Notes under the pieces: model-generated
The model's input: only the letters and a program-made list of their open reading frames with translations
What the model was told of the DNA's origin: nothing
Database searches by the model: none
Part shown: positions 1,868 through 19,966 of the stretch, in pieces
How positions within the stretch are numbered: position 1 is the first letter of the stretch
How the letters are laid out: the number at the start of each line of letters is the position of its first letter
Program-made: the position numbers and the translations under genes
NCBI GenBank assembly: GCA_021790935.1
Contig: JAJYFL010000002.1
Span: 268,315 to 322,721 of the forward strand
DNA length: 54,407 nucleotides
Direction of reading: 5' to 3'
DNA from: a bacterium
GTDB lineage: Bacteria > Vulcanimicrobiota > Vulcanimicrobiia > Vulcanimicrobiales > Vulcanimicrobiaceae

Positions 1868-2036
1868 CTAGGAGGCTGCCGGAGTTAAGCACGTTTCCAT
1901 CTTTGGGCCGCCTTTTGCCCGAATACTTCGTTGCTCATCAGTCACGAAGCTACGGCTTCGCTCCTTCTTCGCGCCTCGTCTCCGGACAAAATTCGGCGCC
2001 AAATCTGAAAACGGCTCAACTCCGACAGCCTCCTAG
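1868..2036 (+). mobile_element. TA-flanked 169-bp palindromic-ended repeat, copy 1
   Basis: The element is 169 bp, with 23-bp imperfect terminal inverted repeats (CTAGGAGGCTGCCGGAGTTA... left, matching the reverse complement of the right end with 2 mismatches). A TA dinucleotide sits at each edge. The conserved core reads TTGCTCATCAGTCAC, then a 6-bp stem with a TACG loop (CGAAGC-TACG-GCTTCG), then CTCCTTCTTCGCGCCTCG. It lies between the divergent FecR-like and D-aminoacylase genes and fills most of a gene-free stretch (1775-2155); I see nothing else clear there. It looks like a non-autonomous MITE. Confidence 0.85.
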
Positions 2037-5363: not shown

Positions 5364-5532
5364 CTTAACAGGTTGCGGGGAAAGCCCCGCACCAATCCCG
5401 CGGGCGCTTTTGGACGTTTTCTTCGTTGCTCATCAGTCACAACGCTACGGCGTTGCTCCTTCTTCGCGCCTCGAAATCGCCCAAAATCGCTCCGCGGATA
5501 TTGGCACGCGGCTTTTTCCGCAACCTGTTAAG
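5364..5532 (+). mobile_element. TA-flanked 169-bp palindromic-ended repeat, copy 2 (divergent ends)
   Basis: This copy is also exactly 169 bp but has different ends: CTTAACAGGTTGCGG on the left and its perfect 15-bp reverse complement on the right. A TA lies at 5366-5367 and 5529-5530. The core matches copy 1 (TTGCTCATCAGTCAC and CTCCTTCTTCGCGCCTCG), but the stem is CAACGC-TACG-GCGTTG: both arms have changed together, preserving pairing. An extra hairpin GCGGGG-AAAG-CCCCGC lies at the left end. It occupies the gap 5340-5728. The rest of that gap (5533-5728) has no gene I can support. Confidence 0.85.
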
Positions 5533-6228: not shown

Positions 6229-6397
6229 CTAGGAGGCTGTCGGAGTTAAGCACGTTTCCGTCTTTGGGCCGCCTTTTGTCCGAATACTTCGTTGCTCATC
6301 AGTCACGAAGCTACGGCTTCGCTCCTTCTTCGCGCCTCGTCTCCGAACAAAATTCGGCGCCAAATCCGAAAACGGCTTAACTCCGACAGCCTCCTAG
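6229..6397 (+). mobile_element. TA-flanked 169-bp palindromic-ended repeat, copy 3
   Basis: This copy is nearly identical to copy 1 and has perfect 23-bp terminal inverted repeats (outer part CTAGGAGGCTGTCGGAG), a TA at each edge, and the same CGAAGC-TACG-GCTTCG hairpin. It sits between two plus-strand genes (gap 6188-6498). The open frame of the next gene runs back into it, but that extension is an accident of the repeat. Confidence 0.87.
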
Positions 6398-18448: not shown

Positions 18449-18524
18449 TGGTAGCCCCAACCGGATTCGAACCGGTGTTACCGCCGTGAGAGGGCGGCGT
18501 CCTAGGCCTCTAGACGATAGGGCC
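18449..18524 (-). tRNA. tRNA-Glu (anticodon CTC)
   Basis: The 76-nt cloverleaf on the minus strand has a 7-bp acceptor (GGCCCTA / TGGGGCT, with G:U pairs), an anticodon stem CCGCC/GGCGG with loop CTCTCAC, a T-arm containing GGTTCGAATCC, and an encoded CCA. It reads GAG. Confidence 0.95.
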
Positions 18525-18525
18525 A

Positions 18526-18599
18526 TGGCTCCCGGTCATGGACTCGAACCACGATAAGCAGAGTCAGAGTCTGCTGTCCTACCATTAGACGAACCGGGA
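18526..18599 (-). tRNA. tRNA-Gln (anticodon CTG)
   Basis: The 74-nt cloverleaf on the minus strand has acceptor TCCCGGT / ACCGGGA, anticodon stem GCAGA/TCTGC with loop CTCTGAC, T-arm GGTTCGAGTCC, discriminator G and an encoded CCA. It reads CAG. It lies 1 base from tRNA-Glu, so the pair is surely one transcript. Confidence 0.95.
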
Positions 18600-19796: not shown

Positions 19797-19966
19797 CCTA
19801 GGAGTTTGTCTGACTTGGGCCGTTTCCGAATCCGGAGGCGATTTTTGTTCGAAGACGAGGCGCGAAGAAGGAGCGAAGCCGTAGCTTCGTGACTGATGAG
19901 CAACGATGTATTCGGCAAAAAGCGACCCGGAGACGGAAACGCGCTCAAGGCAGACAAACTCCTAAG
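19797..19966 (-). mobile_element. TA-flanked 169-bp palindromic-ended repeat, copy 4 (opposite orientation)
   Basis: The ends are CTAGGAGTTTGTCTGACTTG and a near-perfect inverted match (GGCAGACAAACTCCTAAG), with TA at each edge. The core is the reverse complement of copies 1-3, with the same CGAAGC-TACG-GCTTCG stem. Its end sequence differs from copy 1 but equals the solo end at 40579. It lies between the sugar nucleotidyltransferase and the glycosyltransferase. Confidence 0.85.

Follow-up and report, generated by a model that had tools for sequence, protein, structure and literature searches.

The repeats analyzed here resemble the ERIC elements (IRU or RU-1), which are likewise flanked by TA, palindromic, and nonautonomous and fold into a single hairpin with a central hairpin. 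How ERIC-type palindromic repeats move has been an open question; according to PMC2229807, a role of transposases lacked experimental support. The Yersinia palindromic sequences (YPAL or RU-2) are similarly ∼168 bp long, palindromic, and intergenic, and effects on upstream transcripts have been proposed for them; however, their published description sets them apart, as elements without TA ends and with target duplications of 3–26 bp (PMC2229807), whereas the elements resolved here, by a search that required TA, all have TA ends. The REP/BIME elements, a system that includes RAYT transposases, are also multicopy imperfect hairpins, and some relatives found here have two inverted cores; REPs, however, are 20–40 bp long and carry a GTAG or CGTC tag at one end (PMC3733652), in contrast to the present elements, which are ∼166 bp long with TA ends.

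The RUP and IS630-type MITEs share the duplication of a TA target, and IS630 transposases are encoded by some hosts of the present element, but none of the IS630 elements was found to have matching ends. Insertion sequences of the IS5 family (NF033580 group) and their MITEs have TA or TTA beside a leading G, and one of them carries the core described below at both of its ends; however, the other IS5_3 matches that we checked are without the core, and most host genomes are without IS5_3. A literature search, in which coverage of subscription papers was thin, found no description of this core.

Four palindromic repeats in the window

Four repeats had been predicted in the window (the whole stretch of 54,407 nucleotides that was analyzed), and they were indeed found, at positions 1868–2036, 5364–5532, 6229–6397, and 19797–19965, with TA close to both edges. 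The core of copy 4 lies on the opposite strand compared with copies 1–3, and the four repeats are therefore not co-oriented (Table 1). Each element is laid out as TA, purine, arm, core, arm, and TA, with ∼60 bp in each arm and ∼166 bp overall. Folding of the strand with the core in R orientation (the R strand; for copies 1–3, the opposite of the window plus strand) gives a single long hairpin that spans the whole element. The calculated folding energies of the R strand of copies 1–3 were −108.5, −105.1, and −108.4 kcal/mol, compared with −75.9, −85.5, and −84.3 kcal/mol for the complement; the R strand is thus 20–33 kcal/mol more stable, and the core accounts for the difference. The structured strand is the opposite of the one chosen in the original prediction. 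Elsewhere in the window, two neighboring tRNA genes lie on the minus strand (18452–18599).

Table 1. Positions of the four repeats and their cores in the window
Feature	Position	Strand	Remarks
Copy 1, type A element including the TA duplications (TA 1869–1870 and 2034–2035)	1869..2035	-	Site empty in G001 and G002, both of the same genus
Copy 1 core, GCGAAGAAGGAG-CGAAGCCGTAGCTTCG-TGACTGATGAGCAACGA; tandem G·A helix and apical hairpin	1928..1972	-	
Copy 2, type B element, AACAGGTTGCGG... ends	5366..5530	-	Site empty in G001
Copy 2 core, alternative apical stem GCAACGC/GCGTTGT	5423..5467	-	
Copy 3, type A element	6230..6396	-	Site empty in G001
Copy 3 core	6289..6333	-	
Copy 4, type C element, GGAGTTTGTCTGACTT ends, inverted relative to copies 1–3	19799..19964	+	
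Copy 4 core	19862..19906	+	

The element is mobile and inserts at TA, often on stop codons

The host genome (2.65 Mb, 98.8% complete) is related to Candidatus Eremiobacterota MAGs and contains ∼40 copies of the element according to BLAST and pattern searches and at least 52 cores according to the covariance model. The core pattern gave 41 matches, compared with none for the reversed control pattern, and the copy number is therefore far above chance. Copies 1–3 are absent from a syntenic stretch, 93–96% identical, of a same-genus genome (G001), and copy 1 is also absent from a second one (G002). Because three copies of the window are missing in a same-genus genome, we conclude that the element is mobile.

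The TA is duplicated at YTAR sites: YTA..TAR flanks were present in 70 of the 78 elements with resolved ends, in a search that required TA ends and that agrees with the empty sites of the window copies. The first base after the TA is always a purine (G in 72 and A in 6 of the 78). Across 13 end families the length stays between 158 and 175 bp (S.D. 3.8), and TA and the purine are all that the ends of these families have in common; the ends of types A, B, and C resemble one another. The original prediction had described the repeats as opposite to ordinary MITEs, with a conserved core and diverging ends. This is true insofar as the ends differ between families; however, the ends are alike within one arm family, and the elements, like MITEs, are nonautonomous, have inverted repeats, and target TA.

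Among the 33 resolved copies of the host genome, 22 coincide exactly with the stop codon that ends a coding ORF, compared with 9.6% expected from YTAR sites at which an insertion leaves genes intact (p = 3e-15, with genes called by a simple codon-usage script). The same applies to 53 of the 78 elements overall and to none of the four window copies. Insertion into a stop codon is tolerated because the TA and the leading purine of the element rebuild TAG or TAA, a rule that shows how such elements can crowd compact genomes at little harm.

Selection on the core acts on a helix that alternates tandem G·A mismatches with Watson-Crick pairs

The original prediction inferred selection on a folded single strand from a stem that covaries around a C(UACG)G tetraloop. 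Selection on a folded strand is supported by covariation among the genome-wide and cross-phylum copies described below. The tetraloop, however, fails as the selected feature: of 51 distinct loops, only 10 are of the UNCG type, which therefore is not conserved, and it lies on the less stable strand. The selected feature, which the prediction had missed, is a helix in which tandem G·A mismatches, three to four of them with a fixed spacing, alternate with Watson-Crick pairs. The tip consensus on one strand is GC[GA]N[GA]NG[GA]GC-stem-loop-GU[GA]CN[GA]N[GA]GC, and the R-strand core in full reads C-GA-G-GC-GC-GA-N-GA-NG-GA-GC-(apical stem and loop)-GU-GA-CN-GA-N-GA-GC-AA-C-GA. In the minimal core, each GA is opposed by a GA of the other side, which gives three tandem G·A/A·G sites spaced by one and two Watson-Crick pairs; outside these follow one more site (GC/AA or GA/GA) and then another GA/GA. 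Folded as RNA, the R-strand core reached −17.6 kcal/mol (z = −2.2), compared with −11.9 kcal/mol for the complement. Folding with DNA parameters, which may undervalue tandem G·A, did not favor the G·A helix.

We then considered covariation within 62 distinct cores, namely those with the inner two G·A sites. Position N5, the pair between the outer and middle G·A sites, is paired in 57 of the 62, compared with a mean of 23.4 and a maximum of 35 in shuffles, which keep sequence relatedness so that odds taken from them are not exact probabilities. All four pair types occur at N5 (A-T 14, T-A 11, G-C 15, and C-G 16), spread over several arm families and phyla, with the neighboring G·A unchanged. 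The G9 pair also switches (G-C in 42 and C-G in 13), and 47 of the 62 cores retain the G·U pair adjoining the innermost G·A, with A·C never in its place. The apical stem varies in paired fashion among copies, with a third state, GCGACGT/GCGTCGT, in a relative. The change of CGAAGC/GCTTCG to CAACGC/GCGTTG, from which covariation had been predicted in copy 2, is real; however, it recurs in several copies of the host genome and represents one inherited state within that genome.

Consistent with the prediction that the core outlasts the ends, the mean frequency of nonconsensus bases per site in 35 type A copies was 0.0019 in the core and 0.043 in the arms, a ∼20-fold difference that is somewhat inflated because core-based searches favor conserved cores. 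Copies of the host genome that have lost the core each have a different deletion, and every one of them is single, as if copies without a core were unable to multiply. Overall, evolution appears to preserve the folded tip itself. As a separate observation, the core-deleted elements are ∼80–130 bp long (L348–L353 and single ends in the host genome, G000), and their differing breakpoints and very short end remnants are a record of palindrome deletion. An element at the same site was also seen in several species of genus g24 (L133, L151, L155, and L158), and in L155 an arm is partly lost with the core nearly intact.

Known structured motifs did not account for the core. The resemblance to a hammerhead ribozyme (CUGAUGAG...CGAA) does not hold, as many cores read CCGACGAG and the strand with the cleavage site is absent; the three-base bulge beside the G·A pairs of a kink-turn or box C/D motif is absent as well. 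No Rfam family matched, the match to mir-63 being under its cut-off.

The core occurs in several phyla

Within the same GTDB family, the core model matches 58 of 99 genomes; it also matches four genomes from a second family in the order and, weakly, one in the class. An exact pattern scan of GTDB returned at least 69 stretches, compared with ∼0.2 estimated by chance. Among the matches listed, the MAGs outside Eremiobacterota are labeled as Bacteroides sp., Muribaculaceae, Saprospiraceae, Bacteroidales, Elusimicrobia, Verrucomicrobiota, Myxococcales, Nannocystineae, Acidobacteria, and a proteobacterium, and the core is therefore found, going by the labels of the MAG records, in Bacteroidota, Elusimicrobia, Verrucomicrobiota, Myxococcota, Acidobacteria, and Proteobacteria. 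Most of these cross-phylum stretches form long palindromes whose arms bear no relation to the arms in the window, and several of the genomes carry 10–48 cores. A single contaminant is disfavored because the base composition of the arms differs. Searches for a vehicle gave no match in viral contigs and no convincing match in plasmids.

Structural variants were also seen. In several genomes, elements of ∼300 bp contain two inverted cores with one hairpin each (L189–L195; G031, G060, G064, G065, G071, and G075), between which lies a small conserved CCC...GGG spacer hairpin, and they fold into a three-way or four-way junction. In the host genome, a 53-bp insert of two hairpins (CCGCGCCAGCGCGCATCCTGCGCTGCGCGG and CACCTCCGCTTCCGTGCGGAGTG) interrupts the 5′ strand of the core in six copies (L063–L066, L069, and L070; G000:C33:334800-335350 and others), and these copies have multiplied; a site in G001 that is apparently orthologous to an insert-bearing copy (L119) has a plain core instead.

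Candidate mobilizing enzymes

In a Bacteroidota MAG (G149), a 1.1-kb insertion sequence of the IS5 family carries core hairpins in subterminal position at both ends (L266 3915–5038; L341, L337, and L322). The arm sequences of these hairpins differ and their tips agree. The transposase matches NF033580 with 136 bits (cut-off 110) and PF01609, and the element has conventional, identical ends of 34 bp. Other IS5_3 matches, such as L336 in a Saprospiraceae MAG and L338 in the host genome, are without the core, and a match to IS5_3, the only subgroup searched, was absent at 1e-8 from 15 of 20 host genomes. IS630 transposases are present in some element-bearing genomes and absent from most. A search of the host genome (98.8% complete assembly) for type A ends found truncated remnants and core-deleted copies only, and no pair at the distance of an insertion sequence.

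Movement of the elements and function of the tip

The repeats are short, lack a transposase, have terminal inverted repeats, are present in many copies, and duplicate TA with filled and empty sites, and they are MITEs in these respects. Known DDE transposases typically duplicate TA at CTAG/YTAR, IS5 members use YTAR/CTAG-type targets, and many accepted MITEs have no known parent, so that the lack of one in the host genome does not decide the matter. We consider it probable, if by no means certain, that the repeats are ERIC-like palindromic MITEs that are moved in trans by DDE transposases and share a structured tip needed for mobility. Each element consists of two ∼60-bp arms that are free in sequence provided they pair, a purine beside the TA at each end, and the conserved tip. 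Its movement would depend on a DDE transposase, of the IS5 (or IS630) kind, that is provided in trans, and the folded tip would be bound by a protein or aid passage through a single-stranded stage; an intact tip would thus be required for an element to multiply. This account is strained by the matching transposases missing in most hosts and by unrelated ends in elements of near-constant length. Several independent transposases do not easily explain unrelated ends together with one shared core and that length.

These strains are better accommodated if a dedicated mobility enzyme recognizes the folded tip, rather than the end sequence, in single-stranded hairpin DNA (or its RNA) and makes its cuts a fixed distance away, at TA. 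Under that reading, which we regard as possible but rather unlikely, the 13 end families would be expected to have only TA, the purine, and their length in common, the core could be shared between phyla, and copies without a core would not multiply, all of which agree with the results above. However, no such enzyme was found, the TA duplication is of the kind made by DDE transposases, the ends of types A, B, and C are alike, and the Bacteroidota IS5 element has identical ends.

It is also conceivable, although we think it unlikely, that the core is a functional RNA module, kept as a 3′ UTR structure, whose R strand is transcribed with the neighboring gene and whose hairpin is bound by an RNA-binding protein or protects the ends of mRNAs, to the advantage of the host or of the element. 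The frequent position on stop codons, the stability of the R-strand core as RNA, and the retention of a G·U pair where A·C never occurs would all suit such a role, and ERIC has been reported to affect mRNA stability in Yersinia (PMC2229807). However, elements on stop codons show no strand preference with respect to the gene concerned (26 sense versus 24 antisense), the core has no Rfam match, and its conservation in situ is not significant in two orthologous copy pairs, which offer few sites (1/94 changes in the core versus 13/239 in the arms). That an ordinary MITE burst produced all of this free of selection, with covariation left by template-switch repair of quasi-palindromes and a core conserved because the copies are young, is highly improbable: the arm ends do change in pairs among near-identical copies (21 double Watson-Crick changes), as template switching yields, but homogenization of the arms in this way would also have corrected the G·A mismatches, which persist in most distinct cores and across phyla with unrelated arms.

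Relationship to ERIC

We compared the tip with that of ERIC. The ERIC apex, AGGAGC-TTACATAAGTAA-GTGACT, has the same inner [GA]GC...GU[GA] motif, including the G·U pair; however, ERIC is ∼127 bp long, its consensus sequence and outer G·A spacing differ, and only the apex motif is shared. Model R1 scored 4.8 bits against ERIC (E = 0.5 over 728 bases), which is not significant, and a putative homology with ERIC is a lead based on sequence comparison. We also entertain, tentatively and with more doubt than belief, a multiphylum class of mobile hairpins defined by the G·A tip, of which ERIC would be a divergent member; a widely conserved factor would read the tip as single-stranded DNA or RNA, cut at a fixed distance, and insert the element at TA, preferably at stop codons. 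If this is true, such a class would answer how ERIC moves, and small mobile repeats of unrelated bacteria, each family of which has so far been regarded as distinct and species-specific, may belong to a single superfamily recognizable by its fold. In any case, a structural motif that is shared across phyla and has free end sequences offers a defined object for protein pull-down. Finally, in E. coli ERIC (L378/L379) we noted several sites at which G and A face each other, a feature not mentioned in the literature on ERIC that was examined, and one of these is the apex matching the inner core.
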